Source: Tomocerus qinae
Taxonomy: Eukaryota; Arthropoda; Collembola; Entomobryomorpha; Tomoceridae
Direction: 5' to 3'
Length of the DNA stretch: 64,000 nucleotides
NCBI GenBank assembly: GCA_020055645.1
Contig: CM034546.1
Span: forward strand, 34,286,001 to 34,350,000
Shown here: positions 4,212-63,490 of the stretch, one piece after another
Layout: every line of letters starts with the position of its first letter
Position numbering within the stretch: the first letter of the stretch is position 1
Notes under the pieces: model-generated
The model's input: only the letters and a program-made list of their open reading frames with translations
Told to the model about the DNA's origin: nothing
The model's database searches: none
Position numbers and translations under genes: made by a program

Positions 4212-6390
4212 TTAGCAATTATTGTTTTGATTTTGGTTAATCCAATTTATGTACTTTGACACATTTGTGTATACTCCAACGTTATGAGGAGGAGGTCTTG
4301 TACATGTTGTACCATGTGATACGACTCCGCAGAGAAATTTCGAACGGTTGTCTTTGGATTTGCATACAAGTGGTCCTCCAGAATCCCCTCCACACGCATC
4401 AGGTCCATTCAAACCTCCTGCACACCTTTGCAAACCTTTGCTGGGCACGCCTTCTTTTTCACAAGATTGTATTTCAATATCTGCTACTTGTAGTCTGTTA
4501 ACAACTCTTCTGAATTGATCGAATTTTGTTCCCCATCCACTTATTTGTGCAGAATCTGCAAAATGATAACAAAATAATACTTAAATAATGCATTAATAAT
4601 AAAAAAATAATATTTATAATAGTATCGGCGTTAATCAGCTGTCTTCTCCAGCAATGATTTAGCATATTGACTTTAATATACGCATTTAAATATGTATAAT
4701 AAGTTAGCATGTGTTAATACTTGATAGCTGGACGTCATTCACAGGCATAATGGAAAGTGCTTCAACTCTATTTGGTATTCTTCTGAAGGGAGTTCTCAGT
4801 TTAAGTAGAGCAATGTCATTGTAGTGTCTGTTGTCTCCTTCGTTGTAGTTCGGGTGGACAATGACTCGGCATGCGATGGACACTTGTCTTGTTGTACTCT
4901 TTTCGTCCACCTCCTTAATTCCGGCTATAACAATAACTTCTCTTTTGTTAGTCGTTCTCGGGAAGCAATGGGCTGCTGTTATTATCTCCGTGAAGGAATG
5001 CGAGTTCGGGTTTCTTGAATAAATGCTTCCTCCACAACGAGATGTACTACTACCATCGACAATCCTGAGAAGTACTTGATAGGGAATATAATCCGAGTCT
5101 TTTCCTCCTCCTACTTTTCTTGTACGACCTGTGAATGCACACAGAATTACGTTATAGTTATATGAATATTTTTAAGCAAAGCAATACATTTAAGTATTAA
5201 ACTAAACTGTAATGACTTGACTTTATTCTCACATAGGTTTAGTATTCCAAAATCCATATCAATGGATTTTTTATAATTTCAGCTTAAGAGTGTATAAGCA
5301 ATAATATTGCTATCATATAAGTTTATTTCCTAATTATTTTATTTTGTATGTTAGTTGATATAAAACATCCTCCTAACTTTAAGAAACTTTTTAGCTGTGC
5401 ATAAATTAATTAGGTCAAAACTCAGTACTATAATTGTTGCCCAAAAAATAATTTTACAAAAATTAACGACTTATTGATGGTTTAGCAAATCTTTAATCAA
5501 ATATTGAGTTCACACTATTTACCATAACTGAAATACTTAGTACTGCATCCAGTTAAATATTTATCTAGTAGAACTTCCATTTAGCAGTATAATTAAATTT
5601 TAGTGTATAACCCGAATGTTTTGCATGGATTCTACTATTTGTTAAACTTAAATAATGAACAAAACCACGTACCTTAATTGATAATCTAACGACCCATTAA
5701 CACTTACAAATATGTAGACAATCCGAATATTTTAATAAAACTGATAAACCCACAGGAAATTCCAATACCACAATTAACTATCTATATTAGAATGACAAAC
5801 ACACTCAAATCTCACCAGTTTTTCTTGTAGTAGTTTTAACACTCTCAAGTATGCCTGTTATCGATGCCTGTGCAGAAGAGCTCTCGTATGCTGGAGATTT
5901 CTGTTGATCGTTGTAATACAGGGAATTGACATCTAAAATAACAAAAATAAAATTAGAGAGTAAATGCTTTTGTTTTCTCAGTTATCTATAGGTGTATGTA
6001 ATATCAGGTTTGAAGCCTTAAAATAATTATTGCTAAACCAAAAACATGTACATTTTACTCCAAAGCGATAATGCAGGACAATACAATTTTAAAATTTGGC
6101 AGTTTTAAAATTACAAATATATATTTAGTGAGGCTAATGACACTATTCTGACAACGATGATAGCAGAAATATTTATAACGAAATTTGTCTAAGCAGGATC
6201 CCATAATCCCATCTAATGTACAAATACACAATAATAACTGTATTATTACATTCGTAGGCAATCAATAATAACGTCATAAAAATTACTCACCTTGATTAGT
6301 AGTTGGCTTATTGTATCTTGCAGTAGTAGATGATACATTCGAAATAATTAACACCATTGAAAAGAGGAGAAGCTTTGATATCAGCTCCAT
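4212..6390 (-). CDS. Trypsin-like serine protease 2 (four exons, secreted)
   Basis: Secreted S1-family endopeptidase of 322 aa. Exons 6390-6291, 5932-5816, 5128-4721 and 4555-4212 total 969 nt, with GT-AG introns all in phase 1. Residues 1-22 or so form a signal peptide (MELISKLLLFSMVLII...). Exon 2 is a Ser/Thr-rich linker. The activation cleavage is expected after Lys77 (RTRK then VGGG). The triad is His126 (TAAHC), Asp177 (YNDIAL) and Ser267 (GDSGGP); Asp261 at the base of the S1 pocket predicts trypsin specificity. The GWG motif and paired cysteines are present. It is the intact counterpart of the pseudogene at 41,853-44,843 and is paralogous to the gene just 3' of it. No lesion was seen. 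Confidence 0.9.
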
Positions 6391-9803: not shown

Positions 9804-12800
9804 TTAATACAACTTCCTTAACTGCTCAAACTCTTTCTCCTCCATTCCCCTCCCCTTTCCTCCCTCCCACAAATAATAATCTGCTGTTCTGTCAACGTGG
9901 GAGGAGAGAACCGACAAATCTCTGGAGAACAAATCCCAATTTATTCTCCCGACTGCAATTCTCTTTATTTCTTTCTTCGTCAACTCAATCAACTCTTTTG
10001 GTGGAATTGAAGATGAGTAACCAGAGTAAACAATGAGTTCGTCTGTCTGAAAGTGACCCAACAATTCCTTCACTTCTTTAACAGAAAAGTCTTCTAGAAT
10101 GAGTTTATCCACTCTCCTCACTCCACCAACAACTATCGTCTTATAAGTTATTTTGATGTGGGTGATGCTTTTGGGTATTAGATCTACATTCACTTCTTTC
10201 ATCACATCGAAGTGTATGTGTGTGAAGTTGGCAGATCGGAAAGAAGACAAGAAGGAATAATCGGACATCCATTTAAGTGTCAAATATTTCAGATTTGGTA
10301 GGTCAATTGGATCATTATAAACCACTTCTGCCCACTCTAAATACAGTTTTTCAATTGTTGGAGGAAGACAAGAAATGTCCAAAGAAGAAAATCGAAAGTT
10401 CATCTCTTTGACTTTCATTTTCGTCTTTTCCACAAATAGAATACTATACAATTCTAATCCTTGAATATTCCATCTGGCCTCTTTCCAGTTCAACACTTTC
10501 AATCTACTTAAGTGAAGATATTCCATGGAGATTTCGTCACTCAACTCGATAGACATTTTATCACCCTCGAGTGTCAATTTATTGATTTTGTGTAAGTCAC
10601 AGAATTCGTTGAGATTCGCCTCCTCCACTTCCCGTCCATTTCTATTGAGTGAGACATCCTCTACCTCCAATTTCTCTGGAGACAGTCGATCGAAAGATGA
10701 AAGATCCAATGAACATTCCCTCAATTGAATTTTACTTGATTCTCCTCCCAATTCCAATTTGATTGTAGATCTATCCTTTACGAGAGAATAATTGGACTTT
10801 ATGAGATCTGAATGGACTAATCTAATCAAAGTGGCAAGAGAATCTGTGGAATAAATGAGACCAAATCTTCGACTAGTTTCTTTTGTATCTTCCATTATGC
10901 ATTGAATAACTATCAAATGGATATCAAACAAGTTTCTGGACAATTCTTGTTTCAATCCCAAGATTCCCATTTCTATAGCATCTTTAGAGTAATATCTCGC
11001 TTCCTCCATCTCCTCCATCTCTAATTTCTTCAGAATATCCAAACTTTCTTTAAATTCTTCATTTTTGGCCAGACAAATTGACAGATTAAATTTCGCTGTT
11101 AAAGTTTTCAACTTTTCTGCAATTATGTTTGCTAACTGAACCGATTCTTTGAATCTTCTTTGTTTTATCACTCCACGTAGAATATAAATTAGATGAGTTT
11201 CATCTGCAATCTTTAGACCAATTGTCGATGCTTCGTCAATCCTCCCTAAATCCAAACAGAGATAGAAGATCGGATCTCCAATTTCCTTTTTGGTGGGTTC
11301 TTCTTTCAAGTCCATCAACTTCAAATCTATTTCGACATTTATTCGTTTTTCGTCAACTGTTTTTAAATATTCTAACATCTTTCCTAGCGTTTTTACCATT
11401 TCTTCTTTTATAGGATCAATTTTTGTTTCAACATTCAATTCATTCATAAAATCCAAACATTCTTCTTCCTTTCCATTCCAATGCAGGCAAACAGCATAAT
11501 TAAATTTCGATGCTTTAGTGTTCAACTCTTCATTAATAAATCTAGCCAACTGAACCGACTCTTCTACTCTCCCTTCTCTTAGTAATTTCTTCAATTGTTC
11601 TTGATCGAGTAACTCTGCTTTCACTTTTGGAAATTCTATTCTTAGTTCTTCATCAGCGTATTTGGTGAAAGGAATGAATTTGTAGCCGATGAATCCCACG
11701 CAGCCGAGAATCTTCTTCAGCGTCTCCTTTTCATTTTCTCGTCCGTTGTAACGAATTACTTGCTGCAGAAGTCGATGGACACTCAACGTAATCTTGATTC
11801 CATTGTCAATCTGCATTTTTGTTTCCCCGGCAAGGGAATATTTCTTTAAGATTTTAATTGCTCCTTTCAACTTTTCCTCGTTATCATAATTTAATACTTT
11901 CATTAAGAATTGGAATTCCACATCATATGGTCGAATATATCCAAAAATCAGCAACATTTGGTGGGCTTCTTTCCCGTAAGTTTCTTTTAATATTAATTCT
12001 AGGGCAATCTCTACATTGTTATTAATTGTCCGTTCATAATCATCAAATCGGGCGTCTACGACCTTTTCAAATCTATTTCTTTCGAGGTAGCTTTTTAAGC
12101 TAATTTTCCCATCATTCAGCAAAGCGACAGTCAATTGAAGAGCCAAAGGTAGATTTCCTGTCAATGTGCATAATTCCTTCAGTTGGAAATCCGTTCTTCC
12201 TATTGATTCAAATAATATTGATGTTAAGAATTCCAGACTTTCTTCTTCACTGAAAATGTCTATTTCTAAAGTTGACATTTTTCCGAATCCAATCTTATTA
12301 ATTCCTAATTCACGACTTCTTGACGTGATGATACAATAAAAGTTTTTTTCGTCTTTAGGAAGGACATTTATGATTCCATCTTCTCCTTTGTAATTTTCAG
12401 CATTGTCGTAGATCCACAGACATTTACATCCAGATAGAGCATGAAAACATTTTCTAGAACAATCTTGAACTTTGACTAATTCTTTTCTGTTTGGTATTTC
12501 TAAGTCTCTGGCGAGAGTTTCAAAGGAGGTGAGTAGACTTCCTTCTCCGCAGTCGATCCAGATGATGTGATCATATTCTTGTTCGTAGGCGTTTGCATAC
12601 CATTTGGCGGTGAGAGTTTTGCCGACACCGCCCATCCCAGAGTATTTAGTCGCAGCTGAAGACTCGCAGACTACGAGCATTCGGTTTTCGTCCTTCGAAA
12701 TTCGGTCATGTAACTCGTCAATTAAAAGTTTCTGTCCATATTTTCTTTTCAGAAGGGATTTGATTAGCAATTTACTTTCTGGCCACCACTTTTTTATTTT

Positions 12801-12950
12801 CGGATTGAGACAAACATGTCGGGTTTGAATTGGAAGGCCTCCATGAGAAATAGAATGTCTGTCGCTGGTTTCTTGAGTTTCTTGCCTTGTCTTCTGTAGT
12901 TTGTCTTTCGTTTGCAGTGTAGACAGCAGGTTGTTTTTTCTGGTTTCGTC
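9804..12950 (-). CDS. Gene A exon 7: NB-ARC, TPR-like and LRR-like domains
   Basis: One 3,147-nt exon (1,048 aa) beginning after the acceptor TTTATTTACAG. NB-ARC motifs, numbered in the full protein: P-loop GMGGVGKT 884-891, Walker B CLWIYDNAEN with Asp961, ITSR sensor 987-990, GNLPLALQL from 1044, and VHR near 1170 in place of MHD. The VHRLLQ form is common in NB-ARC proteins with TPR-type tails. Two similar helical units follow, each with a KFN-A/S-CL core. The C-terminal third repeats Leu/Ile-rich strands (for example INKLTLEG, IEKLYLEW, LKYLTLKW). One oddity is an eight- to nine-residue stretch (ESSAATKYS) between the first strand and the P-loop, where most NB-ARC proteins have none. Confidence 0.85.
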   Translation of the reverse strand, partial: DETRKNNLLSTLQTKDKLQKTRQETQETSDRHSISHGGLPIQTRHVCLNPKIKKWWPESKLLIKSLLKRKYGQKLLIDELHDRISKDENRMLVVCESSAATKYSGMGGVGKTLTAKWYANAYEQEYDHIIWIDCGEGSLLTSFETLARDLEIPNRKELVKVQDCSRKCFHALSGCKCLWIYDNAENYKGEDGIINVLPKDEKNFYCIITSRSRELGINKIGFGKMSTLEIDIFSEEESLEFLTSILFESIGRTDFQLKELCTLTGNLPLALQLTVALLNDGKISLKSYLERNRFEKVVDARFDDYERTINNNVEIALELILKETYGKEAHQMLLIFGYIRPYDVEFQFLMKVLNYDNEEKLKGAIKILKKYSLAGETKMQIDNGIKITLSVHRLLQQVIRYNGRENEKETLKKILGCVGFIGYKFIPFTKYADEELRIEFPKVKAELLDQEQLKKLLREGRVEESVQLARFINEELNTKASKFNYAVCLHWNGKEEECLDFMNELNVETKIDPIKEEMVKTLGKMLEYLKTVDEKRINVEIDLKLMDLKEEPTKKEIGDPIFYLCLDLGRIDEASTIGLKIADETHLIYILRGVIKQRRFKESVQLANIIAEKLKTLTAKFNLSICLAKNEEFKESLDILKKLEMEEMEEARYYSKDAIEMGILGLKQELSRNLFDIHLIVIQCIMEDTKETSRRFGLIYSTDSLATLIRLVHSDLIKSNYSLVKDRSTIKLELGGESSKIQLRECSLDLSSFDRLSPEKLEVEDVSLNRNGREVEEANLNEFCDLHKINKLTLEGDKMSIELSDEISMEYLHLSRLKVLNWKEARWNIQGLELYSILFVEKTKMKVKEMNFRFSSLDISCLPPTIEKLYLEWAEVVYNDPIDLPNLKYLTLKWMSDYSFLSSFRSANFTHIHFDVMKEVNVDLIPKSITHIKITYKTIVVGGVRRVDKLILEDFSVKEVKELLGHFQTDELIVYSGYSSSIPPKELIELTKKEIKRIAVGRINWDLFSRDLSVLSSHVDRTADYYLWEGGKGRGMEEKEFEQLRKLY

Positions 12951-15900
12951 CTGTAAATAAAGTTTAACGTGCATAATACCAACATATTTTATATCCCAGA
13001 GAGAGTAAAAATTCTTTTAAGAGGTAAAATATATAATGAGATCAATCAAATATTCGTGAAAGGATGTCGAGTATTTAGTAAATTGTTTTGTGGTAATGCC
13101 TAAGTAATTAAGTGTGCAATGGTTTTAATTTCAATACCTTAACCATTGAAAAGCATTTATGCTTAACTCCTTAAGAAATATCAGTTTTTCTCGTACTTCA
13201 AGAGAATTTCCAATATTCTGAAGGAATGTGACTGCTACCAGAAAAATAGTAATGTAATACTTTCACAAATCAATAAATGTAAATTTTTCTCGAGCGTATC
13301 GCGAATTTATGATTTACTGCATATTATAAAACGATTAAATATCGCCCCTGGGATATATTCTATAGGTTTGGCAGCCAGCTAAAATCCTGATTAATTACGA
13401 TGATAAATACTTACCTTGGGGGGCTCTTCAGAGGGTGCGAGTTTGGGTTTCCCATTGATACAGGTGTCGACTTCGTCAGCATTTCTGGAGAATGGCTGAA
13501 GTGTCTGAAGTTTGGATTTTTTCTCGGTGAGCGCATACTTTAATTTGCTCCATCTATCCAACACTTGGATCTTTTTGGTTTCGATCGAGTCGTTGGCGTA
13601 GTGGTTGGATGAAGTCAATTGTTGGGCAAACGTTGTGAGTTGACACATTTTCTCCTCCTGCCCAGAAATGTCCTCGTCAAAGTCTTTGATATGCTTAATA
13701 GGTGACTTTGTGTCGTATAAATTTTTGTCATCCGACAGAAAACTCTCCCTACAATGATATAACATACATTTAGTCCGTGTCCTTGTAAATGTGATAATTT
13801 AATTTGTTACCGGTTGGCCATCCAGTCCTCTGCCTCTTGGCAGTCCCTGTAGAAGAGTTGGAGTTCCAAACATTGGTCTAATTGCAATTTTCTTTCCATC
13901 CATATTTTCTCCAGTTTTCCCTGGGCATCACAAGCCAATTTCAGTGTCTCTTCTATTTGGACACTGGCGTAATGGCGTGAGTCGAGAAGTTGTTTCCCAA
14001 AGAGCTCAAATTTCTGGAAATTCTCCGAATGAGCATCCAAGTCTGCGCGGTGTTTCTTGTGACGCTCCACAAGTGCTTCTGCTCCTGTCACATCAGAGGC
14101 CAATTCATCCGAATGCACAAGACTCATTTTGGCATTTATCATATCAATGAAGTCCTGGTTGTCGCTCAAGAAACGCCGTAGGTCGTTACTAATGGGAAAA
14201 ACAATAATATAGAGAACTGAAAAAATTAAATCCCCATAAAATAAACACAGAAGTTGTAGAATATTTATTTATTTCAAACTTGTCATACTTTAATTTTATT
14301 CAATAGAATTTGCCCACTTAATGTTTTGCAGTTCAACCTGTTTTGGTTTATTGCCAATATCATAATTATAGTAAAGTATTTACAAAAGTGAATCCAGAAT
14401 TAAAAGTTGTCAAAACACAATACGCATAGCGTAATGTGTAATTATGCAGGGTAAAAAAGATACCTTATAATAATTTTATAAGCTTTGATATACAGAGAAA
14501 GAATTTTCCCTCTCCCTTACTCGAGCCCTCTTATACTTAAATTGCAATTTTATAACATCGAGCAAAAAAGGATCTTTTTTGCCTTTTTTATAAAAAAGGT
14601 AGGAGTAAGTTTTTTAAAAAGCAGTCCTTTTTTGATGTATTTACATCGAATTAACATGTAGTACTTTTTTACTTCTTGTAAAAAAGAAGTACCTTTTTTG
14701 TTTCATGTTTTATAGTAAAATAACTAAGATCAAAAAGTACATGTTATAAGAACAAAATCTATCTATTCAATTTTGATATTTTGATGGAACATTAATCTGT
14801 TTTGTTTTTTATTGATTTTAATTGTCATCAATAGATTGACTGTCCTGCTTTTAGTAACCTGTTTTGAAAACATCCCGATTTAAGAAACGGCCATTTTTCA
14901 ATTGAATAATAATTGGTGACTGCAAGCGAAAATTTTCACTGCAAATAATAATTTTTTCGCACTGTCCTTTTGCGAAGCTTAGGCTATTTTTGGCTATTCT
15001 CGTGGAAAGTTATAAAATTTTCGTGGTTCGCGCAATTATGAGAATTTTAGGCAATGTATTTGGCTAAGCGTATTAAAATTTGTCCCATTTTGGATTATTT
15101 TTGGTAAACAATATAATTTCTGCGCCTAACGTGATTATATACGAATTGTAGCCTATTTTGAGCAAAAAGAGACTTTGATTATAAAAGACTTTTAGGCTAT
15201 ATTGTTATCAATTTTTGGCAAAAAAGGTTAAATTTAAATAAATTAGCTGTAAATATTTCTAACAAACATAGTAATTATATTATGTGCAGTCATTACTGTA
15301 TAGAACTCCTAGTTTTCCCTAGTCAAATTATAGTCAGCCTAATCGTCAGTAATCAATTTTTGATTTTATACTGCTATTTTCATAAGCAATATATTTTGGT
15401 TTTCTGGCAATTTTGATATTCAATATTAACCTAATTTTAATTTCGACTAAGCTCATCTGTAGTAGGTACTTCATATTTACGTATTCTCACCATATTGAAA
15501 GTTTAATTTCGTTATTTTATACACTAATTTATTTGAAATTGCTCAAATATTGAAATCTGATTGCTACTGTGTTAATGGCAAATCTTAAATTCAATAGTCT
15601 CTTGTCTAATCTAATACTTTCATCCTTGGAGGTCAAAATTAATCTACTTCTAACTTCTGATAATTTAAGTTTTTATTTATTTTGATAGTACTATTATTCC
15701 ATTTTGATTTGATTTTGAATTTAAAAGCCAATATTTAACTACTTTTTCTACTCAGCTACCAAGCATGTTTACGCGGTACTGTCTGTTTACATACCTGTCT
15801 TTCATATCTTTTTGTTGTTTATCAAACTTCTCTATGGCCACAGAGCTTTGTTCTTTTAGAGCTGAGTTTAACATGTCGTTAAATTCTTGTAAAACGTAGT

Positions 15901-18900
15901 ATGGTTCATTTTTAAATACGGCGATAAATTCGTTTCGAATTTTTACTTCTGCTTTGCCAATGAAATTAGATAAATCTTCTGCATGTTTCACGCTTTTTTC
16001 TACGTCAGCTAACTCCTGTGTATAACTCAGCACGGATGAGTTAAGAGAATCTTCCAAGGTTTTTCTGGTTTGTTCTAATTTTTTACTGTTTTCTTGAATT
16101 AGATCCACTTGACCTTCCTGAAACAATTAAAATGTTATAAATACAGTTTTATTGGGTATACTATGGCTCAAAAATCAATTTAATAACTAATATATAAGTA
16201 CCTAATTAAGATCTTTCAATTATCAATAAAATAATTTTCTCAAATCAAAACTACTTCAACGTGAATCCGTAATCTACAGATTCATATTTCGACTCCTTTA
16301 GAAATCTTAACATAGCTTATAACGTACCAAGGAAATAAAATTAAATTTTATCGGCATTCCCATTGCAATGTCTTCCAATTGAATGCGTTGGTTTGGTTCT
16401 TTTTCCGTCAGACGAAGTATCAGGGAGTTCAGCCAAGAAATTTTTTGGATTTTACTTCCTGTCATTCTTGCATATTTAATTTTGCCGAACTTCTCCATCA
16501 AATTTTCATTCGTGGGATCAAAGATTTCTGACAAAATCAATCCAAACGAGAACCAGTCCACGTGCTGGCCATATTTTGCTTTGCCATCTGCATGCTTTTC
16601 GTCCATTTCAGGTGCCCTATATTGTGGATTTCCTACTGCAATTGACAGTGATTGTAACTCGTACTGTTTGCTTGTAATCGACAATCCGAAGTCGCCGATT
16701 TTAACTGGAGGAGCAAAATTTATGTTCGAGAAGTAAATGTTGTCAGGTCTTAGGTCTCTATGAATTAGCCTATTTTGGTGTATGTAACATAAACCATCAG
16801 CTATTGCTTGGCCGATGAACTCACACATGGACATTTTTGGCTGATTGTTTTCATTCAAAATTGTATTCAGCCATTCCCTCAGCGTTTCGCCACAAAGTTC
16901 AGTTTTTATGATAAGCCCTGTCACTTGGCCATTATTAGCAGAATCAAAACACAATGCAAAATTTGCACGAGTGTACTCTAATATTTTGTCCTTGTTTTCC
17001 CACTGAAGTATTTCCTTAATCTTATTTACAGATAGTGAAAATTGGTCAGATGATTTGTACTTAACAACATTAGGATGATCAAGTTTTGCTTGGTTCCTCA
17101 ACTCTCTTAAGATATCGTTAGTGTTCCCATAGGATACATTTCGGTTTGGAATGATTTTTATCGCGTAAATTTGTTGATCAATAGTGTGTGTAGCGGAAAT
17201 AACAACTCCGAAACACCCACTTCCCAGTACTTCAATCGTTTTGTAATTCCAACTTTCAATGACAAAGTTATCTGTGTAAACAATATATTCTTATTTTAAA
17301 ATTGCGAAGCTACAAATTCATTTTACCTATTAACAAAATCATTTATTTATATAAAAAATGACTGATATAAAAAATTCAATTTCGGTTCAAGGCTCCTGCA
17401 TATCGACTGCTCTATATGTCTTTTATTTTTTTTTTAAATTTAAAAAATGCGGAAAGCAGTAGTTGCACTATTTTAGAACAGTGTTTAAATTAGATCATAA
17501 AACATGACATGACAGCAACCCCAAAAACCCGCATTTTTGGGTATTCAACAGCAAAAACCGGAATCTTCGGGTATCAAACAGCAAAACTCCCGGTTTTTGG
17601 GTATTAAACAGAAGTTCTATAACGGGGTCGGATCTACTTTAAAATAGGGATTATGTCCCAACGAAAAAAATTTCAATGAACATAATATACATTAGAAACT
17701 ATTTTATATGTAGGTCCTCTGGGAGGGAGAGAACATGAGACGAATTAAGGACTAGCCTTAAATTCTCTACTCTCAATTCAATTGCTCCCTAAATTAATTT
17801 TGTAACTAACAATCAACGTCAAAGTCAATACGTGTTGAATTATAAAATTGTCCTCCTTGCTGACATTTTCGAACAAAAACACCTTTAAAATAACTGTCTG
17901 ACTGTCTTCGACCCATGATATCTTTTGCATCGAAACGACGTGAAGGACCAATAAATCAGGCAAGTATCAAAATATTTGGTCAAAGTGGGTGGAGGCGCAG
18001 TCAAACATATTGTCAAAAAATAAGACAAAGTACAAAAGTTTGAAAACCTTTTTGGGGAAAATCTTTTTTTCTCAGATTTAGAGGGAGGGGCTGTGACGAA
18101 TATAAGTTAAATTGGTTAGTTTATATCCAACATAAAAATCGAAGCTAAAACCTAAATATCGTCCCCTAAGGAACCATTTAGCCTAAAACCACTTTTCGTT
18201 CTCCATACTCCATAGCCTAGACACCCTCTACATGAATGGCGCAGCATTTAGGCTATGGTGTTTAGGCTATTTGGTACACAAAACGAAAAATGGATTTAGG
18301 CTATTTTTTACACAAAACGAAAAATGGATTTACGCTATTTTGTACACAAAACGAAAAATGGATTTAGGCTACTTTGTACACAAAACGAAAAGTGATTTTA
18401 GGTTAAATGGTTCCTTAAGGGACGATATGAGACAATGCTGTATTTATCGCTATGATTTATTTAACCCCATATTACTCAAAATTATGTAAGCCATTGGACC
18501 TTATGATTGTATGATATTTATACTAATTTGCAAAAGTTAGTGCGATAAGTTTTGGCTCGCTGACGCTGAACTAGCAAATAATGCTCTATTCGATTCTATT
18601 TGACTTTGCTGAGTGTAAATCGTATCCCAATTTAATGAAATTATTACCTGATCCCTGTAATCTGTTCAAAATTTTCTCCGCTAATTTTCCAGCTGCGTTT
18701 TCTTCCAGTGCAGAGAGTAAGAATGGTAAAACCTCCTCAATTGGCTTTGTCGAGATAGCAGAATAAAATTTCGTGTTTACTTCAGACACAACCTTTCCCG
18801 ATTTCTATATAATATAAACATATATATTTTATGTAAGTGGGTTTTATTATATTATTATTATTATCAACAATTAATTAAACCATAATCAAAGATAGAGATT

Positions 18901-19107
18901 TCTTACAATATGTTCGACATCATTTGCTGATAAATTACGAGTGGACATCATATGAAGACACAAATTCGACAGACACGCTTCAGTTGTGTCATGAACCAGA
19001 CACGGCAGTAAAGTTGTGATAGTTTCTTTGAAATCATCTTGAGTCCAATTTTGTGACTGTATTTGTAATTTATATTTTGTAGCTTTACGACTAACCGTGT
19101 CTGACAT
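9804..19107 (-). CDS. Gene A: kinase / spectrin-repeat / NB-ARC / LRR fusion protein
   Basis: Seven exons: 19107-18907, 18804-18648, 17271-16328, 16117-15795, 14188-13811, 13748-13415 and 12950-9804, 5,484 nt, 1,827 aa. Every junction is GT-AG and the phases agree (0, 1, 0, 2, 2, 0). Approximate order: unrecognised helical region 1-119, protein kinase 120-434, coiled coil 435-541, two alpha-spectrin-like repeats 542-779, NB-ARC about 850-1175, helical TPR-like repeats about 1215-1480, LRR-like repeats about 1510-1800. NB-ARC proteins are ATP-dependent switches, and repeat tails usually sense or restrain. The kinase would be an unusual output domain. No signal peptide or membrane segment was seen, so it is probably cytoplasmic. 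The gene could be two adjacent genes only if the coil and spectrin junctions are not used; the phase match and the duplicated copy argue against that. The start at 19107 is the first ATG of that open frame; earlier exons cannot be excluded. Confidence 0.75.
12951..13414 (-). other. Gene A intron 6
   Basis: 464 bases between the second spectrin exon and the NB-ARC exon. It starts GTAAGT and ends TTTACAG. The matching intron in gene B is 2,255 bases long because of inserted sequence. No gene seen. Confidence 0.65.
13415..14188 (-). CDS. Gene A exons 5-6: alpha-spectrin-like repeats
   Basis: Exons 14188-13811 (378 nt) and 13748-13415 (334 nt), split by a 62-base intron, encode residues 542-779. 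The sequence follows conserved alpha-spectrin closely: SSDELA-like start of a repeat, GAEALVERH, DQCLELQLFYRDC, AEDWMANRESFLS, and VLDRWSKLK. In metazoan alpha-spectrin these motifs occur in this order in the repeats of the second half of the protein. The first codon (AG+T) restores a spectrin-like Ser-Asn-Asp-Leu-Arg-Arg-Phe. Spectrin repeats are three-helix rods; here they would space the kinase from the NB-ARC domain. The second repeat ends early, in a Pro-rich linker (EEPPK). Confidence 0.85.
14189..15794 (-). other. Gene A intron 4, with repeats
   Basis: 1,606 bases. It contains a hairpin-rich AAAAAAGG/CCTTTTTT patch at about 14,560-14,700, and a degenerate dispersed repeat from 14,840 onward (blocks like TTTTAGGCTATTTTTGGC). 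The latter is matched at the same place in gene B (53,420-53,830), with a related copy at 19,480-19,810. No gene seen. Confidence 0.5.
15795..16117 (-). CDS. Gene A exon 4: coiled-coil linker
   Basis: 323 nt, from acceptor TTGTTTCAG to donor GACAG|GTATGT, encoding residues 435-541. It is rich in Glu, Lys, Gln and Leu with heptad-like spacing (LEQTRKTLEDSLNS, ELADVEKSVKHAEDLSNFIG). It resembles no catalytic family I know. It probably forms helices that join the kinase to the spectrin rod and may drive oligomerisation. The copy in gene B has eight extra codons near its start. Confidence 0.8.
16328..17271 (-). CDS. Gene A exon 3: complete Ser/Thr protein kinase domain
   Basis: 944 nt encoding residues 120-434 in one exon. 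Glycine loop GSGCFGVV (136-143), ATP-anchoring Lys158 (YAIKII), a candidate alpha-C Glu near 176, HRDLRPDN with catalytic Asp292, DFG Asp313 and YRAPE at 338-341. All key residues are present, so activity is expected. The stretch VDWFSFGLILSEIF and the long insert after the early strands recall the eIF2-alpha kinase (PEK-like) group; the YRAPE motif is less typical of it. Family placement is therefore tentative. The acceptor is TTTACACAG and the donor TTG|GTACGT. Confidence 0.85.
17272..18647 (-). other. Gene A intron 2, with MITE and degenerate short repeats
   Basis: 1,376 bases. 17,520-17,605 holds about three degenerate ~33-bp units ending GGGTATTAAACAG or GGGTATCAAACAG; a longer array sits in the matching part of gene B (56,890-57,075). 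A 266-bp MITE occupies 18,160-18,425. No gene seen. Confidence 0.55.
18160..18425. mobile_element. 266-bp MITE with TA target duplication and internal tandem repeat
   Basis: Ends TCGTCCCCTAAGGAACCATT and its near-exact inverse, arms about 45 bases, flanked by TA. The matching site in gene B (near 62,684, AAATATGAAAC) is empty and shows a single TA, so insertion happened after the duplication. The inside carries about four ~33-bp units containing CACAAAACGAAAAATGGATT. TA duplication suggests a Tc1/mariner-type source; no transposase is present. Confidence 0.8.
18648..19107 (-). CDS. Gene A exons 1-2: unrecognised helical N-terminus
   Basis: Exon 19107-18907 (67 codons) and exon 18804-18648 (157 nt) are joined by a 102-base phase-0 intron. 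Residues 1-119 are mostly helix-forming, starting MSDTVSRKATKYKLQIQ. The second part (EEVLPFLLSALEENAAGKLA) looks like an amphipathic helix pair. A death-fold domain is possible because such domains often begin animal immune switches, but I see no defining motif. Copy B lacks these exons at the expected place. Confidence 0.65.
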
Positions 19108-33107: not shown

Positions 33108-34258
33108 CCGTAAATATCGATATAATTCCGCGCGGAATTATTGTTTCAAAGGAACAAAAAAAATGGTGAATAGTCGAAATAGCCGCAGCTGTAGAATTAT
33201 TTCGATACGCGGAATTATTTTTCAGTCAATTTTTATTTAATTTTCAATGCAAAAGTTAAAAATGAAAAAAAGTTTAATAAAAAATGAATTTATATTTCAT
33301 CTTCTGAAGACTGATATATCCATCGGGTACACAAGATCGAGGTCCATGTCTTCGTCGTCCGAAGGCAGTAAAATATCATCCTCATGGATCAGGGGCTGTT
33401 CCAATTGCATGTACTGCTGCTGTAGCATTTCTCTCCCTTCATTACAATCTTTGCCTGGTTTAAAAGCAGTAATTAAATTATCCTGGCTTCCATCCGTAGC
33501 ATTTAAAATTTCACATGAAAAGAAGGAATTTTTTATGACTTATGTTGTTATAGAATCCCAGGCTTCGACGATCCAACTGCAGCGGCCTTGCATTACCTCC
33601 CTTAGTTGTTTTAACATTTCCTGGGGTTGACACCCATTGATTGTATTGCTTCCGAATGGAGTCCTTAAATGGCTTGTTCCAACTGACATCGGCGGGTTGT
33701 CTATATTTAGTACAGCCTCCTGGGATTATAGCAGAATCGATATTTAGTCTGCGTAATTCTTTTTTAGTAGCTTCGCTTAAGTGGCATCTGAAACTGTCCC
33801 ACACCACAAGTTTCGTCCTAAACAAATCTCTGCCAATGACTGTCCTCAGGAATATTGTAGTTAAGGGATCATCCATCCACACTTTTCCGGCATAAACTAA
33901 TTCTAGTTTCGCATTGAATTTCTCTAAATCGTTTATTGTACGCACTCGATTTAATAACACAAAGGGTTCCAGTTTGGTTCCGTCCGCCTTGACAGTCAAC
34001 ATGATTGTAATGCGTAGTTTATTGTGTCCAGTTGTAAGAATTGTTCTTATTTCCTTAGTACATATGCACTTATTTATTTTACCTTATCATTAAATTTGCC
34101 TTTTACCTACACTGACATGAATACGCAGGTAAAGGTACGCGGAATTATTTCGATACGCGGAACTATTTGCTAGAACGGCCTAAAAAGCTAAGTAAAATCG
34201 AAATAATTCCGCGTACGCGGAATTATTTCAGTAGGCGGAACTATATCGATATTTACGG
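33108..34258 (-). mobile_element. Decayed pogo-like DNA transposon (TA target site)
   Basis: Ends CCGTAAATATCGATATA and the inverse, flanked by TA at 33,106-33,107 and 34,259-34,260. Sub-terminal copies of GCGGAATTATTTCGATACGC occur near both ends, mostly on the right, as possible transposase-binding sites. 1,151 bases is too short for a complete element of this group. Inside lies the C-terminal half of a DDE transposase on the minus strand. Confidence 0.8.
33511..34002 (-). pseudogene. Truncated pogo/Tigger-type transposase (DDE_1)
   Basis: About 163 codons. Typical text is LTVKADGTKLEPFVLL, KLVVWDSFRCH (second catalytic Asp) and QPADVSWNKPFKD (third acidic position). The helix-turn-helix region and the first catalytic Asp are missing; the sequence stops at the element's right side. 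So the copy cannot encode a working enzyme. Confidence 0.75.
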
Positions 34259-35007: not shown

Positions 35008-35044
35008 GGAATTTTCACATCTAAAGTTTTACATCCTGGGGTAG

Positions 35045-35541
35045 TGAAGTTTTACAACCAGCCACTGCAGTTTTACAACCGGCCACTGCAGTTTTACAAC
35101 CGGCCACTGCAGTTTTACAACCGGCCACTGCAGTTTTACAACCATGCACTGCAGTTTTACAACCAGCCACTGCAGTTTTACAACCGGCCACTGCAGTTTT
35201 ACAACCGGCCACTGCAGTTTTACAACCATGCACTGCAGTTTTACAACCAGCCACTGCAGTTTTACAACCGGCCACTGCAGTTTTACAACCGGCCACTGCA
35301 GTTTTACAACCATGCAATGCAGTTTTACAACCAGCCACTGCAGTTTTACAACCGGCCACGGCAGTTTTACAACCGGCCACTGCAGTTTTACAACCGGCCA
35401 CTGCAGTTTTACAACCGGCCACTGCAGTTTTACAACCATGCACTGCAGTTTTACAACCGGCCACTGCAGTTTTACAACCGGCCACTGCAGTTTTACAACC
35501 AGCCACTGCAGTTTTACAACCACAAATGGCAGTTTTACAAC
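35045..35541. repeat. 21-bp satellite, about 24 units
   Basis: The unit is CCACTGCAGTTTTACAACCG plus G, A or ATG-type variants. The variants follow a higher-order order (one AGCC unit, two to three GGCC units, one ATGC unit) of about 84 bases. Because 21 is divisible by three and the unit has no stop, several frames on both strands stay open. I regard these as non-coding. Confidence 0.9.
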
Positions 35542-36467
35542 CTTTCAAATGTAATGAACTCAAAGTTTGGTAAAACCTAAATAAATGCTTGATAATTATA
35601 TTAAGACGAAGTTTGGTTAATAACCGAAGGAATGGTGCATTATGATAAATGCTCCATTCAAATGCAAAAGGTAGGTAGAGATTATGATTGTATTTACATA
35701 CAATGAAAGTAAACTTGTTGTCGAGAAATCGGAACTGAAGTACAATAAAGCTTAGACATTTGACGCAAGCGGTAGTTAGCAGTTTTGCAATAGCAGCATG
35801 GCTAGTTTCGTAAAATTAGTGTGAATTATTCGCAAGGAGGTGGAATAGAAGAATCATATCATTTTTTTAACGCAAACATTCCAATCTAAAATCAACAGAA
35901 TTAATTAATTTACAAATATAAAAATATTTGTAAATGTCACTGTGTCAGTAATGACAAGCTGACAAGTGTATTTAATAAAACTTCAAAATGTTCATACAAA
36001 TGATACATAATTAATTTTTCTCACCTTGCAGGCTCCGGAATGTGTTCGTGTTCCTTGATTTTTTTCTATTCCACCTCCTTACGAATAATTGAATAATTTT
36101 CCCTTACAATTAGGTCTTCTCTCACAAACCCAATAAGAACCTCCATGCTTATAATCCTCCACATGACAATAAACGAAACCACGGAAAGCTAAGTTTCCTT
36201 TTCCTCTAACTGATTTTACAAAACTAGCCATGCTGCTTTTACAAAACTGCTACCTACCGCTTGCGTGCTTCAGTTCCGATTTCTCGTCTACAAGTTTACT
36301 TTCATTGTATGTAAATACAATCATAATCTCTACCTACCTTTTGCATTTGAATGGAGCATTTATCATAATGCACCATTCCTTCGGTTATTAACCAAACTTC
36401 GTCTTAATTTAATTATCAAGCATTTATTTAGGTTTTACCAAACTTTGAGTTCATTACATTTGAAAGG

Positions 36468-36730
36468 TTGTAAAACTGCCGTTTGTGGTTGTAAAACTGC
36501 AGTGGCTGGTTGTAAAACTGCAGTGGCCGGTTGTAAAACTGCCGTTTGTTGTTGTAAAACTGCAGTGGCTGGTTGTAAAACTGCAGTGGCCGGTTGTAAA
36601 ACTGCAGTGGCCGGTTGTAAAACTGCCGTTTGTGGTTGTAAAACTGCAGTGGCTGGTTGTAAAACTGCAGTGGCCGGTTGTAAAACTGCAGTGGCCGGTT
36701 GTAAAACTACAGTGGCTGGTTGTAAAACTT
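36468..36730. repeat. 21-bp satellite, inverted arm, about 12-13 units
   Basis: The same unit as at 35,045-35,541 but in reverse orientation (TTGTAAAACTGCAGTGGCCG), with CCGTTTGTGG and CCGTTTGTTG variants. It is shorter than the left arm, so arm lengths changed after the palindrome formed. Confidence 0.9.
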
Positions 36731-37120
36731 CACCACCCCAGGCCCCTATTTCACAATGATTACAAGTCTACAAGTACAAGTAGTTGTCGACAAACATGTG
36801 TCACTTTTGTTTCATAGGAAAACTACAAACTTGTCACATTTACAATTAAATTGACTTGTAATTACAATTGTAGAGCGCGAATTGTCAATGTTTGGTTTCA
36901 TAACAACCTTTGCATTTTCACAATATTTGTAAATTGTACAAATTTTAACAACAATTTCTACAAAGGTAATACCCTCCATCAGTCAGTCGTTTTGCGGTAG
37001 AAAACAGGTACATAATACTCAAAATAATTTATTATCACATTCATATTATGAAAATATCGGTTTTGTTTAATCATCTACAGATCCTTATGATTTAAAATAA
37101 TTTTTATAATAGATAATAAA

Positions 37121-38124
37121 ATGCATTCAATCAGTAGTAGCAGTGAAGATTCCGAAGACGATGTTCCCTTACTAAGAAGACCTAAAATATTCAAGCAAAG
37201 GACAAATTTTAATGTTGAAGACGAGTTTACGTTTAAAGAGAAATTCCGTATATAACTAGACCTTCGTTTGATTATATCATTCAAAAGATTAGTCATCATT
37301 TGGAGCACCCAAGTGGAAAAAGTGGAGCGTTATCGTCAACTCAACAATTAAAAGTTGCCTTACATTGGATGGGGAATGGCAGTCAGCTCCATTCTGTCGC
37401 AGATATGCATGGAGTAAGTAAAGCAACTGTTCACCGATGCATTCGAAAAGTTAGCTCCGTAATTGTTCATCAATTGTTTCGCGAGGAAGTTCGGTGGCCT
37501 ACTGACTGCAACAAAATTGCAACAGATTTTCGAACCTACGCAGGATTTCCCCAATTGGCAGGCTGCGTAGACGGATCGCTTATCAACATTGATGCACCTA
37601 CCGAAAATGAAGCAGCATATGTCGACAGACATGGAGACCACAGCTTGAACTGCATGTTTATCTGTGGACCTAATTTGCAATTCTTTTACGCGAATGCAAA
37701 TTGGCCGGGAAGCGTTCACGACTCGAGAGTTTTGCGTAACAGTACTATTTTTTCTCGATGGACTGACGGATGGAGGCCCTTTCCAAATGCTCTATTGCTA
37801 AGGGATAGTGGTTATCCTTTGCTCAACTGGTTACTAACACCAAAAAACCCAGGCGATACGCAAGAAGGCTGCCTTAGAAGATATTTAAGGAGACACAAAT
37901 CTACTCGAAGATTAGTGGAATGTTCATTGGGGGTGCTGAAGGAAAAGTTTCCCTGTCTTAATTATCTGCGCTTGCATCCTAAGGTAGCTGCCTACGTTAT
38001 CCTTACGTGTGTGACGCTGCATAATGCAGAAAACCGGATCAACGGTTATGGCACTGTTGACTTATCCGTTGGTATAAATAATATTATTTATAATATAATT
38101 TTCTATTTACATATTGACATATAA
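37121..38124 (+). pseudogene. Harbinger (HARBI1-like) transposase, frameshifted
   Basis: DDE_Tnp_4-type nuclease. From ATG 37,121 an acidic N-terminus runs into a TAA at 37,253-37,255; the homologous sequence resumes one frame away (TRPSFDYIIQKI) and continues to about 38,124. A helix-turn-helix-like part (MHGVSKATVHRCI) precedes the nuclease. Catalytic acids: Asp in AGCVDGSLI, Asp in SVHDSRVL, Glu in VECSLGVLKEKF. Apart from the frameshift the core looks intact, so the copy is fairly young. Confidence 0.7.
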
Positions 38125-41852: not shown

Positions 41853-44843
41853 TTAGCAATTATTGTTTTGATTTTGGTTAATCCAGTTTATGTACTTTGA
41901 CACATTTGTGTACACTCCAACGTTATGGGGAGGAGGTCTTGTATATGATGTACCATGTGATACAACTCCACAGAGTAATTTCGAACGGTTGTTTTTGGAT
42001 TTGCATACAAGTGGTCCTCCCCCCTCCACACGCATCTGGTCCATTCAAACCTCCTGCGCACCTTTGCATATCTTTGCTGGGCACGCCTTGTTTTTCACAA
42101 GATTGTATTTCAATATTGTAGTCTGTTAACAACTCGTCTGATCTGATCTGATCGAATTTTGTTCCCCATCCACTTATTTGTGCAGAATGTTTAGAAACAA
42201 TATAATACTTAAATAATAAATTAATAAAAATAATGAAAAATAATATTACCTATAATAGTATCAGCGTTAATCAGCTGTCTTCTCCAGCAATGGCCATATG
42301 GAGCATATTGACTTTAATGTACGTATTCAATACAGTACAATAAGTTGGTATGGGTTAATACTTGATAGCTGGGCGTCATTCACAGGTATAATAGAAAGTG
42401 CTTCAACTCTTTTTGGTATTCTTTTGATAGGAGTTCTCAGTTTAAGTAGAGCAATGTCATTGTAGTGTCTGTTGTCTCCTTCGTTGTAGTTCGGATGGAC
42501 AATGACTCGGCATGCAATGGATTCTTGTCTTGTTGTACTCTTTTCGTCCACCTCTTTAATTCCGGCTATGACAATAACTTCTCTTTTGTTTGTCGTTCTC
42601 GGGAAGCAATGGGCCACAGTCAGTGTTCGATGACCAGCCGGCTGGTTGATTAAAATGGCTGGCCGGCTGGTTAAAATGGGTGAAATGGCCAAAAATAGTC
42701 AAATGGGGCTATGTGAACTGAGAAAATCATCCTTGACTTGGCGGAAATTTAAAAATCATGATTTTTAGCCATTTTGGCCACTAGCCATTTCAGCCACTTT
42801 AGCCGGCTGGCTGGTCAAAATCATTTTTAGCCGGCTAAAATGGAACATTGGCCACAGTGATTATCTCCGTGAAGGAATGCAAATTCGGGTTTCTGGAATA
42901 AATGCTTTAACTCTGTTTGGTATTCTTCTGAAGGGAGTTCGCAGTTTTAGTAGATCAATGTCATTGTAGTGTCTGTTGTCTCCTTCGTTGTAGTTCGGAT
43001 GGACAATTACTCGGCATGCGAAGGACTCTTGTCTTGTTGTGCTCCTTTCGTCCACCTCCTTAATTCCGGCTATAACAATAACTTCTCTTTTGTCAGTCGT
43101 TCTCGGGAAGCAATGGGCCGCAGTGATTATCTCCGTGAAGGAATACGAGTTCGGGTTTCTGGAATAAATGCTTCCTCCACAGCGAGATGTACTACTGCCA
43201 TCGACTATCCTAAGAAGTACTTGATAGGGAATATAATCCGAGTCTTTTCCTCCTCCTACTTTTCTTGTACGACCTGTGAATGCACACAGAACTACGTTAT
43301 AGTTATATGAATAGTTTAAGCAAAGCAATACATTTAATTATTAAACTAAACTGTAATGCCCTGACTTGTTTTATTGTCACAAAGATTTAGTATTCCAATC
43401 AGTAAAATCTATATCAATGAATTTTTTGATTTCAGCTTAAGAATATAAGTAATAATATTCCTACCAGATAAGTTTATTTCCTCTGTAGTTATTTTATTTT
43501 GTATTTAATTGATATAAAAAAACCTCCTAATTTTTAGAAGTTTTTTAGCAGTATATAAGTCAATTAGATCAAAAATTCTAATTGTTGCCTTAAAATAGTC
43601 TACAAAAGTTAACATTGATGATTTCGCAAATCTTTAATCTCGTAGTAAATATTGACTTCATACTATAACATAACCTTATTTACTATAGTATTGCATCTAG
43701 TGTGATTAATTATTTAGTATAACTTCCATTTAACAGTTTATTAATATTGTTGTGTATATATGCACGAATGTTTAGCATAGGCTGCTATACTATTTGTTAA
43801 ACTTAACTAGTGAACAGAACCCTGATAATGTAACGACCCTACACTTAGCACTTACAAATATATAGACAGCCCGAATATTTTAATAAAACTGATATAAACC
43901 TACCGGAAATGCCAATACCACAATTAACTCCCTATATTAGAATGACAAAAACACTCAAAGCTCGCCAGTTTTTCTTGTAGTTGTAACACTCTCAAGTATG
44001 CCTGTTATCGATGCCTGTGCAGAAGAGCTTTCGTATACCGGAGATTTCTGCTCATCGTTGTAATACAGGGAACCTACATCTAATATAAGAAAAATAAAAT
44101 TAGAGAGTAAATTTGTTTTTCAGTCATCTTGGTATTTGATGTTAGGTTTGAAACCTTAAAGTAATTATCATTAAAGTCCAGAACATAAGATAAGACTTTT
44201 TTCGTCCAATTATTTTGTGGCTGGTCTATATTTAACTACTCTAAACTCCATTTAAATTATTAAAGCTCTTTTTTTAAATTGAAAAATGGAAATTTTGGGC
44301 AGATCAAATGGCATAGTAAGCTTTCATTAATTTTAAAAGTAAATTTTATATTTCTAAAATTTTGCCAAATACATTTTGAAAACATTTCATGTTCAACCGT
44401 TCTCCCAATTCCCATGTATTTTCTATATCGTAAGTTTCAATCACAAACATTGAATGCCACGTGTCTACGCAAATTATTTTCTTTAACCATAAATATACTT
44501 TAAATACGCTAAAGCGGTAGTGCAGAACAATTCAATTGTAAAAATTGTTAGTTTTAAAAATTGCAAATCGTTGCATGTAAATTTAGTGAGGTTAATGACT
44601 TTATTTTGGCAACGATAGCAGAAATATTTTTAACAAAAGTTTTCTGAACAGGATTCCATAATTCCATCTGAATGTACAATTACACCATAATAACTGTATA
44701 CTGTATTACATTCATAGCCAATCAATAAAAATATAAAAATTACTCACCTTGATTAGTAGTTTGCTGATTATATCTTGCAATGTAGATGATGCACAAAGAA
44801 TGATCATCGCTGAAAAGAGGAATAATTTTGATATAAACTCCAT
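41853..44843 (-). pseudogene. Trypsin-like serine protease pseudogene (duplicate of protease 2)
   Basis: Homologous to the gene at 4,212-6,390, with all four exons traceable: about 44,843-44,746, 44,079-43,966, the 43,280-42,371 block, and 42,185-41,853. Lesions: a frame change near the end of the signal-peptide exon; GC instead of GT at the exon 2 donor (43,965-43,964); exon 3 present as two partial tandem copies fused near 42,903; a 230-bp hAT-type MITE inside one copy; 8-bp and 5-bp indels in exon 4; and a 5-bp deletion that removes the Asp-Ser of GDSGGP and shifts the frame. One Cys of the active-site loop is also replaced by Tyr. It cannot make an active protease. Confidence 0.9.
42621..42850. 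mobile_element. 230-bp hAT-type MITE in pseudogene exon 3
   Basis: Ends CAGTGTTCGAT and, inverted, CAATGTTCCAT, with an 8-bp target duplication GCCACAGT at 42,613-42,620 and 42,851-42,858. Inside are repeated CCGGCTGG/CCAGCCGG and AAAATGGC motifs. CAGTG ends and an 8-bp duplication are the hAT signature. No transposase present. Confidence 0.85.
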
Positions 44844-47425: not shown

Positions 47426-49402
47426 CTAGTTTAATACAAACTCCTTAAACTCTTTCTCCTCCATTCCCCTCCCCCTTCCTCCCTCCCACAAATAATAATC
47501 TGCTTTTCTGTCGACGTGGCTGGAGAGAACCGACAAATCTCCCCGCCAATCTATTCTTCCGACTGCAATTCTATTTATTTCTTTCTTCGTCAACTCAATC
47601 AACTCTTTTGGTGGAAATAAAGAGTTCCATCTAGATTGAACAACGAGTTCGTCTGTCTGAAAGTGACCCAACCATTCCCCCACTTCTTTAACAGAAAAGG
47701 CGAATAGAATGAGATTTTCCACTCTCCTCACTCCACCAACAACTATCGTCTTAGAATTAGTTATTTGGATGTGGGTGAGGCTTTTGGGTATCTGATCTAC
47801 ATTCACTTCTTTCATCTGATTGAAGTGTATGTGTGTGAGGTTGGGAGATCGGAAAGAAGACAACAAGGAAGAATCGGACATCGGAGGAAGTGTCAAATAT
47901 TTCAGATTTGGAAGGTCAATTGGTTCATTACAAACAACTTTTGGTCTACTTAAATCCAGTTTTTCAATTGTTGGAGGAAGACAAGAAATGTCCAAATAAG
48001 AACAATGAAAGTCCATCTCTTTGACTTTCATTTTCGTCTTTTCCACAAATGGAATAAACCTCAATTCTAATCTTTGAATATTCCATCTGGCCTCTTTCCA
48101 GTTCAACACTTTCACTCCCCATAAGTAAAGATATTCCATGGAGATTTCGTCGCTCAACTCAATAGACATTTTAAGACCAAAGAGTTTCAATTTCTTGATT
48201 TTGTGGAAGTCACAGAATTCGTTGAGATTCGCCTCCTCCACTTCCCGTCCATTTCTATTGAATGAGACAAACCGACCTAACTCCAATTCCTCTGGAGACA
48301 GTCGATCGAAAGATGAAAGATCCAATGAACATTGACTCAATTCTATTTTACTTGATTCTCCTCCCAATTCCAATTTGATTGTAGATCTTTCATATTCCTT
48401 TACGAGAGAATAATTGGACTTTATGAGATCAGAATGGACTAATCTAATCAAAGTGCCAAGTGAATCTTCTGAATAATTGACCTCAAAACTTTGTTTAGCG
48501 TCTTTTCCTCCTTTCGATTCATTTTTCAGTTCTATTCTGCATTGAATGACCTTTAAATGGATATGAACCAAGTCTGTGGACAGTTCTTCTTTCAATCCTA
48601 ACATCCCCATTTCCACAGAATCGATAGAATATTTTCTCGTTTCCCCCATTTTTTCCTTCTCCAATTCCTTTAGAATCTCCAAACTTTGATTTAAATTCTC
48701 ATTTTTGGCCAGGCAAATTGCGAGATTAAATTTTGATGTTTTTGTGTTTAACTGTTCGACAATTACCTTAGCTAATAGTACCGATTGTTTAAAGCTTCTT
48801 TGTCTTAGCATTCCACCCAGAACGTTAATTACGTGGCTCTCATCTGCTATCTGTAGACCAATTGTCGATGCTTTGTCAACCCTACCTAAACCCAAATATA
48901 AATAGAATATCGGATCTGCAATTTCCTTTTTGGTGGGTTCTCTTTTCAAGTCCATTAACTTCAAATCTATTTCAACATTTATTCGTATTCCGCCAACAGT
49001 TTTCAAATATTCTAGCATATTTCCTAACGTTTTTGCCATTTCCACTTTTACCGGATCTAGTTTTGTTTCATGATTTAGTTCCTTCAGAATATTCAGACAT
49101 TCCTCTACCTGTCCATTTTTATGCAGGCAAACTGCATAATTAAATTTGGTTGTTTTAGTCTTCAACTCTGTATGAATAAATTTCGTTAGTTCAACCGATT
49201 CCTCAAATCTCTCTTCGCTTATCAATTTCTTTAATTGCTCTAGATCTAGTAACTCTGCATTGACTTTTGGAAATTCTTTTCTTAGTTCATGCCGGGCTTG
49301 AATCGGAAAGAGGTCGCTGGTTTTTTGAATTTCTTGGTTTGTCTTCCGTGGTTTGTCTTTCGTTTCTAGTGTAGACACCAGTTTGTTTTTTCTGGTTTCG
49401 TC
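47426..49402 (-). CDS. Gene B last exon: TPR-like and LRR-like repeats, NB-ARC deleted
   Basis: 1,977 nt, 658 aa, 1,170 nt shorter than in gene A. The sequence passes from FPIQARH directly to ELRKEFPKVNAELL. In A these two pieces lie about 389 residues apart, with P-loop, Walker B, GLPL-type and VHR motifs between them. The net loss is a multiple of three. The helical repeats (EQLKKLISEERFEESVELTK; KFNLAICLAKNE) and the Leu-rich C-terminus are kept. Confidence 0.85.
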   Translation of the reverse strand, partial: DETRKNKLVSTLETKDKPRKTNQEIQKTSDLFPIQARHELRKEFPKVNAELLDLEQLKKLISEERFEESVELTKFIHTELKTKTTKFNYAVCLHKNGQVEECLNILKELNHETKLDPVKVEMAKTLGNMLEYLKTVGGIRINVEIDLKLMDLKREPTKKEIADPIFYLYLGLGRVDKASTIGLQIADESHVINVLGGMLRQRSFKQSVLLAKVIVEQLNTKTSKFNLAICLAKNENLNQSLEILKELEKEKMGETRKYSIDSVEMGMLGLKEELSTDLVHIHLKVIQCRIELKNESKGGKDAKQSFEVNYSEDSLGTLIRLVHSDLIKSNYSLVKEYERSTIKLELGGESSKIELSQCSLDLSSFDRLSPEELELGRFVSFNRNGREVEEANLNEFCDFHKIKKLKLFGLKMSIELSDEISMEYLYLWGVKVLNWKEARWNIQRLELRFIPFVEKTKMKVKEMDFHCSYLDISCLPPTIEKLDLSRPKVVCNEPIDLPNLKYLTLPPMSDSSLLSSFRSPNLTHIHFNQMKEVNVDQIPKSLTHIQITNSKTIVVGGVRRVENLILFAFSVKEVGEWLGHFQTDELVVQSRWNSLFPPKELIELTKKEINRIAVGRIDWRGDLSVLSSHVDRKADYYLWEGGRGRGMEEKEFKEFVLN

Positions 49403-63374: not shown

Positions 63375-63490
63375 ATATTTGATATTAATTTGGAAAATTT
63401 AGTGCGATAAGTTTTGGTACGCTGACGCTGAACTAGCAAATAAAACTCTATGCGATTCTATACGACTTTGCTGAAAGTGAACCGTATCCA

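Follow-up and report, generated by a model that had tools for sequence, protein, structure and literature searches.

Receptors of the NLR/STAND type in plants and animals, in their NB-ARC-LRR and NACHT-LRR forms, hold a nucleotide switch between an output-like domain on the N-terminal side and C-terminal repeats. Here we describe a pair of tandem genes, copies A and B, on the minus strand of a 64,000-nucleotide window (the whole stretch of DNA analysed, from contig CM034546.1 of the springtail Tomocerus qinae; positions below are those of the window), in which copy A appears to follow this plan in an unusual form. The locus resembles such receptors in its domain order, in replacements on a putative LRR face, in a conversion-like tract and in presence/absence variation between tandem copies; it differs from them in having a PKR/PERK-like kinase with two alpha-spectrin repeats towards its N-terminus, in TPR-like repeats between NB-ARC and the LRR-like end, and in an LRR unit that matches no Pfam LRR family. 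On balance we lean towards the view that the pair encodes an intracellular STAND/NLR-like sensor with a kinase output, whose alpha-spectrin segment would serve as rod or bait.

The combination of an NLR with a kinase is itself known from fungi. Passages of one report mention fungal NLRs with kinase domains (PMC4986451), and the parts available of another, on the Sordariales, describe 12 such NLRs with CHK2-like kinases, C-terminal in nine of them, with 0 occurrences of the word 'spectrin' in its main text (PMC12258605). As to arthropods, an NLR in print is the shrimp LvNLRC, assigned in excerpts of the paper to the NLRC subfamily (PMC12370184); the main text of an arthropod immune-gene paper uses none of the terms NLR, NACHT, NOD-like and nucleotide-binding (PMC4833078). 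For the kinase side, the table of a review, a source seen in extract, marks PKR as absent in seven insect genera (PMC7917218). Searches of the open-access literature returned nothing on NB-ARC with springtail, with spectrin repeat and kinase, or with spectrin, protein kinase and LRR; NB-ARC together with eIF2alpha kinase returned only a plant review, judged from the part available, and broader searches yielded no such protein among the matches listed. The kinase-spectrin-NB-ARC fusion was thus not found in the open-access literature.

Gene structure and domain content

A sequence-only reading of this DNA had placed seven minus-strand exons in a single frame, and its junctions proved exact: in copy A, as rebuilt from the sequence, the introns have GT donors and AG acceptors, the exons are in phase, and the product is 1,827 amino acids followed by a stop. 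The domains it had assigned fared unevenly, with the kinase, two Spectrin repeats and NB-ARC above the Pfam cut-offs, TPR below the cut-off and LRR unlisted. The introns and the alpha-spectrin repeats would suit an animal gene. The features of copy A are as follows.

18907 to 19107, minus strand: exon 1, unproven as part of the gene (ATG start, 67 amino acids, open, GT donor, in-frame stops upstream; no Pfam match)
18648 to 18804, minus strand: exon 2 (codon score; no Pfam match for exons 1 and 2 together)
16328 to 17271, minus strand: exon 3, kinase domain bearing the catalytic motifs and a long beta4-beta5 insert (Pkinase, 3.3e-37)
15795 to 16117, minus strand: exon 4, linker, possibly a coiled coil (kept in copy B)
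13811 to 14188, minus strand: exon 5, alpha-spectrin repeat (Spectrin, 1.9e-19; PDB 3fb2, 7.6e-45)
13415 to 13748, minus strand: exon 6, the following alpha-spectrin repeat, colinear (Spectrin, 4.9e-15; PDB 3fb2, 8.3e-16)
9804 to 12950, minus strand: exon 7, NB-ARC, TPR-like and LRR-like parts and stop (gene model, Pfam, NCBIfam)
11721 to 12737, minus strand: NB-ARC nucleotide-switch module, P-loop GMGGVGKT at 12638-12615 (PF00931, 1.1e-11)
10851 to 11657, minus strand: TPR-like helical repeats (sub-threshold TPR matches, selection between the copies, model helices)
9807 to 10850, minus strand: LRR-like region (few synonymous differences; replacements gathered on LxLxx positions predicted to be exposed)

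The two 5' exons were assessed by codon score against 113 non-coding open stretches, a blunt test that was trained on exons 3-7 of both copies and in which the kinase exon itself scores low (0.092). Exon 2 scored higher than 113 of 113 and looks coding; the score of exon 1 was equalled or exceeded by 13 of 113. Some upstream exon is needed for the kinase, because exon 3, numbered by its full codons, has no ATG before codon 146 in A and before codon 123 in B. Intron 2 of copy A also carries short repeats, direct as well as inverted, about a TTTTCGTTTTGTGTAC-like unit (18156-18428).

The match to PF00931 (44.9 bits against a cut-off of 23.5) and the P-loop identify an NB-ARC ATPase in copy A. 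Bacterial NB-ARC-TPR-like proteins, represented by the FxSxx_TPR model NF040586, the one NCBIfam row for this module, resemble it in an NB-ARC that aligns over about 340 residues (72-410; 1.2e-31) and is followed by TPR-like repeats; they differ in that the match, at 110 bits, stays under the curated cut-off of 300 bits for membership, and in that the kinase-spectrin side is not in the model. The closest solved structure for the NB-ARC is Roq1 (E=0.004), and the one plasmid match was weak (49% over 16%). Scans that reach close relatives only found no relatives of the NB-ARC in prokaryote genomes, and none of exon 7 or of the kinase (queried as a two-copy alignment) in viral contigs.

For the repeats behind the switch, Pfam gave no TPR or FNIP row up to the cut-off, the best being TPR_19 at 2.3e-4 and FNIP at 6.1e-4, both in copy B. 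The structure model of exon 7 has a mean predicted local distance difference test (pLDDT) value of 41.9; from it, the Foldseek matches listed are mostly TPR-type proteins at low template modelling (TM) score, which lends weak support to TPR-like helices, and model residues at about 781-970 form repeated beta strands, with pLDDT of 54-84 by block.

A tandem paralogue supports the fusion

A self-comparison of the window by blast paired about 3.9-18.6 kb with a co-oriented stretch at about 41.1-63.5 kb, revealing a duplicated block whose second gene copy, copy B, runs from 56247 to 47426 on the minus strand.

55301 to 56247, minus strand: copy B exon 3, kinase (Pkinase, 1.8e-38)
54741 to 55087, minus strand: copy B exon 4, linker, equivalent of exon 4 of copy A
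52054 to 52431, minus strand: copy B exon 5, alpha-spectrin repeat (Spectrin, 4.5e-20)
51658 to 51994, minus strand: copy B exon 6, alpha-spectrin repeat (Spectrin, 2e-11)
47426 to 49402, minus strand: copy B exon 7, TPR-like and LRR-like parts without NB-ARC (1977 bp, in frame)

The comparison covers exons 3-7, exons 1-2 lying outside its reach: homology of B to A ends at 63489, with a 22-bp repeat array onward to the window end (16 tandem copies at 63638-64000, near the expected place of copy B exons 1-2). Exon phases are identical (1,0,2,2,0), all donors (4/4) and acceptors (5/5) are conserved, and the joined frame of copy B has a single stop, its last codon. Identity between the copies is 68-83% in the four introns that link exons 3-7 and 78-89% in the exon pieces; indels are multiples of three in 3/3 cases in exons 3-6, one of them a 24-bp in-frame indel in exon 4, and in 9/48 in these introns. 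In exon 7, compared in hand-cut pieces, 5/9 indels are multiples of three. The exceptions are two in the TPR-like piece, whose lengths of 1 and 5 add up to 6, one of 2 in the 5' piece and one of 13 in the last; the last residues of the copies differ. A chance chain of exons is rejected on these grounds, since copy B repeats splice sites, phases and frame and the indels show the pattern described.

Selection was estimated as omega from pairwise codon models of A against B, with columns gapped in either copy and stop codons dropped before codons were counted. Omega was below 1 at p<0.05 for the kinase (0.29, 314 codons), the putative coil of exon 4 (0.46, 107 codons), each spectrin repeat (0.46, 126 codons, and 0.49, 112 codons) and the TPR-like part (0.30, 266 codons), and from these estimates the four parts are judged to have been under purifying selection since the duplication. 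Because they are so constrained between the copies, the fusion predates the duplication and has been retained. Open frames, conserved splice sites and omega of 0.46-0.49 likewise reject decayed pseudo-exons as the source of the spectrin segment. The paralogue thus strongly supports, by sequence comparison, the fusion of kinase, coil, spectrin and TPR-like parts.

The copies part company at the switch. Pfam finds no NB-ARC match in exon 7 of copy B, which is 1,170 bp shorter than that of copy A (1977 against 3147 bp), in frame. B more probably lost the module than A gained it, TPR after NB-ARC being a common domain order.

Kinase and spectrin segments

Both copies carry the GxGxFG, AIK, HRDxxxxN, DFG, APE and VDW motifs of a protein kinase, including the catalytic Lys, the HRD Asp and the DFG Asp. 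PKR and PERK make up the top 8 of 1,429 PDB sequences matched by the kinase query (78-90 bits) and the top 8 of 64 matched by a two-copy profile, in which calcium-dependent kinases come next, then HRI and GCN2. Measured against the eIF2alpha kinases PKR, PERK, HRI and GCN2, the domain is alike in having PKR/PERK as its best overall PDB sequence match and in its long beta4-beta5 insert (NVVKYK and beta5 are 51 residues apart in each copy, and the stretch lies opposite the PKR insert in the alignment). It departs from them in that HRI and GCN2 rank under calcium-dependent kinases, in reading HRDLR instead of HRDLK, and in its surroundings, as Pfam scans of the product found no dsRNA-binding or other known eIF2alpha-kinase sensor domain. 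The kinase rows from PADLOC and NCBIfam reflect general kinase similarity, the latter under cut-off, and the structure model of the kinase has a pLDDT of 31.

The spectrin repeats are above cut-off and nearest to the alpha type. Exon 5 shares 70 of 124 residues, in A and in B alike, with brain alpha-spectrin (PDB 3fb2), and 63 identical residues are common to all three; exon 6 matches the next stretch of the same chain. The likeness to alpha-spectrin thus lies in two colinear repeats, and the difference in that only about two repeats are present, embedded in another protein, with no EF hand or SH3 in Pfam scans. We rejected the idea that a full alpha-spectrin gene supplies the segment: when the window was searched by tblastn with the product alone as query, spectrin matches lay only at the two loci, those of copies A and B.

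Discussion

The sequence-only reading had taken the fusion for a sensor whose nucleotide switch controls an attached kinase, and this interpretation is partly supported: the fusion by the paralogue, and the sensing indirectly, by the pattern of substitutions in the LRR-like end. There, the copies differ at 19 of 216 synonymous sites, compared with 190 of 583 over the remaining parts, and replacement divergence (dN) is 0.13, with 0.12-0.20 in the other parts. Because synonymous divergence is low while dN is within the range of the other parts, the pattern fits a recent exchange or conversion between the copies, followed by replacement. Of the LxLxx positions predicted to be exposed, 19 of 44 are altered, compared with 50 of 293 others (p=0.0002), in a test that is independent of chosen bounds but was devised after the alignment had been seen. 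With the motif slid to 12 other offsets, p ranged from 0.04 to 0.97; there was no excess in the control parts (kinase, 3/21 against 66/284; TPR-like, 4/23 against 88/250), and motifs called on A alone or on B alone gave p=0.001 and 7e-6 against other non-core positions. A comparable pattern comes from a coffee NLR cluster, for which passages of the report describe strong evidence of positive selection only at xxLxLxx residues, together with conversion between paralogues (PMC3113787).

Apart from the late devising of the LxLxx test, several results weigh against a sensor of this kind. Pfam lists no LRR family for either copy, and among the 50 of 1,039 Foldseek matches listed for what is a poor model, with TM at most 0.33, no LRR-titled protein appears. 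Omega of the LRR-like end is 1.61 over 344 codons at p=0.09, or 1.42 by counting (interval 0.89-2.38); the stronger value for codons 1400-1660 (3.02, p=0.0028) has bounds picked after the data had been seen, and across six 60-codon windows omega exceeds 1 in four, with an interval that excludes 1 in only one. All of these estimates come from two copies, the start of exon 7 looks neutral (1.34 over 38 testable codons, p=0.69), and NB-ARC, having no counterpart in B, is not covered by the A/B omega. The best PDB match other than PKR or PERK is a calcium-dependent kinase at 71.8 bits, above GCN2 and HRI; the N-lobe alone puts calcium-dependent kinases first, 4.5 bits over PKR, and the C-lobe alone finds nothing significant. 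The kinase is therefore best called PKR/PERK-like, short of a proven eIF2alpha kinase, its family being left unsettled by the half-domain searches. Control of the kinase by the switch also sits uneasily with copy B, which, if functional, would operate without a switch of its own, because its kinase, coil, spectrin, TPR-like and LRR-like parts are kept and NB-ARC is absent.

If the pair nonetheless encodes such a sensor, analogy to NLRs and PKR-type kinases suggests the likeliest course of events, from switch control of the kinase to its substrate, the ligand and an immune role. In copy A a short N-terminus, an active-looking Ser/Thr kinase like the eIF2alpha kinases, a linker, two spectrin repeats, NB-ARC, TPR-like and LRR-like repeats follow one another. 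The LRR-like end would bind a variable foreign or modified ligand, and binding would free the NB-ARC for an ADP-to-ATP swap and assembly. The kinase domains so brought together would phosphorylate one another, as PKR and PERK do upon dimerisation, and then act on a substrate, possibly eIF2alpha, with a stop of translation as the outcome. The spectrin segment could act as spacer, as a rod for dimerisation or as bait copying cortical alpha-spectrin, and copy B could be, without NB-ARC, a partner or brake that binds but does not assemble alone.

The same domains can be read in other ways. One is an integrated decoy, in which kinase and spectrin are copies of pathogen-targeted host proteins serving as bait and the kinase is not an output. 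What suits this idea is the colinear stretch of alpha-spectrin inside the protein, which stays open from its conserved acceptor to its conserved donor, and CHK2-like kinases in fungal NLRs have been proposed as decoys in passages of the Sordariales report (PMC12258605). We nevertheless consider a decoy unlikely here: both copies retain catalytic motifs that a bait need not have, the kinase is constrained (omega 0.29), and it lies N-terminally, where outputs usually stand. Improbable too, in our judgement, is a non-immune regulator, in which a STAND module tunes a cytoskeletal or stress kinase and change in the LRR-like end arises from self-recognition or from divergence of partners between the copies; this would agree with the constraint on spectrin and kinase, and nothing here links the gene to infection, but replacements on exposed LxLxx positions and a conversion-like tract are typical of recognition genes. 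That two or three neighbouring genes were misjoined, or that transcripts are mostly short alternatives such as a kinase alone ending in intron 3, is very improbable despite poly(A)-like hexamers in introns (intron 3, for one, has ATTAAA in both copies and, in A, AATAAA as well), given spectrin exons that are flanked by conserved splice sites and open at either end, a conserved acceptor at the start of exon 7, phases that fit in both copies and a kinase that needs upstream sequence.

Returning to the kinase-output sensor, its fullest form would be that an animal lineage joined an NLR switch directly to an eIF2alpha-type kinase, so that sensing of a pathogen by a diversifying LRR face brings about translation arrest within a single molecule at a plant-like resistance locus, with captured alpha-spectrin as bait and the switchless duplicate as partner or brake; we regard this form as doubtful. 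If true, it would allow a direct test of whether animals drive a stress kinase by an NLR-type switch, and would exemplify how integrated domains and LRR faces evolve outside plants. With NB-ARC missing from one member, the tandem pair amounts to a natural deletion experiment.

Genomic surroundings

The gene neighbours in the duplicated block are trypsin-like serine protease open reading frames on the minus strand, at 794-1895, 4215-5171 and 41926-43337. Pfam Trypsin matched five of the six protease reading frames tested, the one at 41926-42249 giving no match, and a protease-like stretch at 0.8-1.8 kb matches both copies of the block. Between the copies lie transposase-like reading frames at 37237-38121 on the plus strand (DDE_Tnp_4, 6.5e-29) and at 33514-34083 on the minus strand (DDE_1, 9.5e-12), and a repeat array at 35025-36732 with offset steps of 21 bp and inverted halves, plus matching minus, that are mostly about 90% alike.

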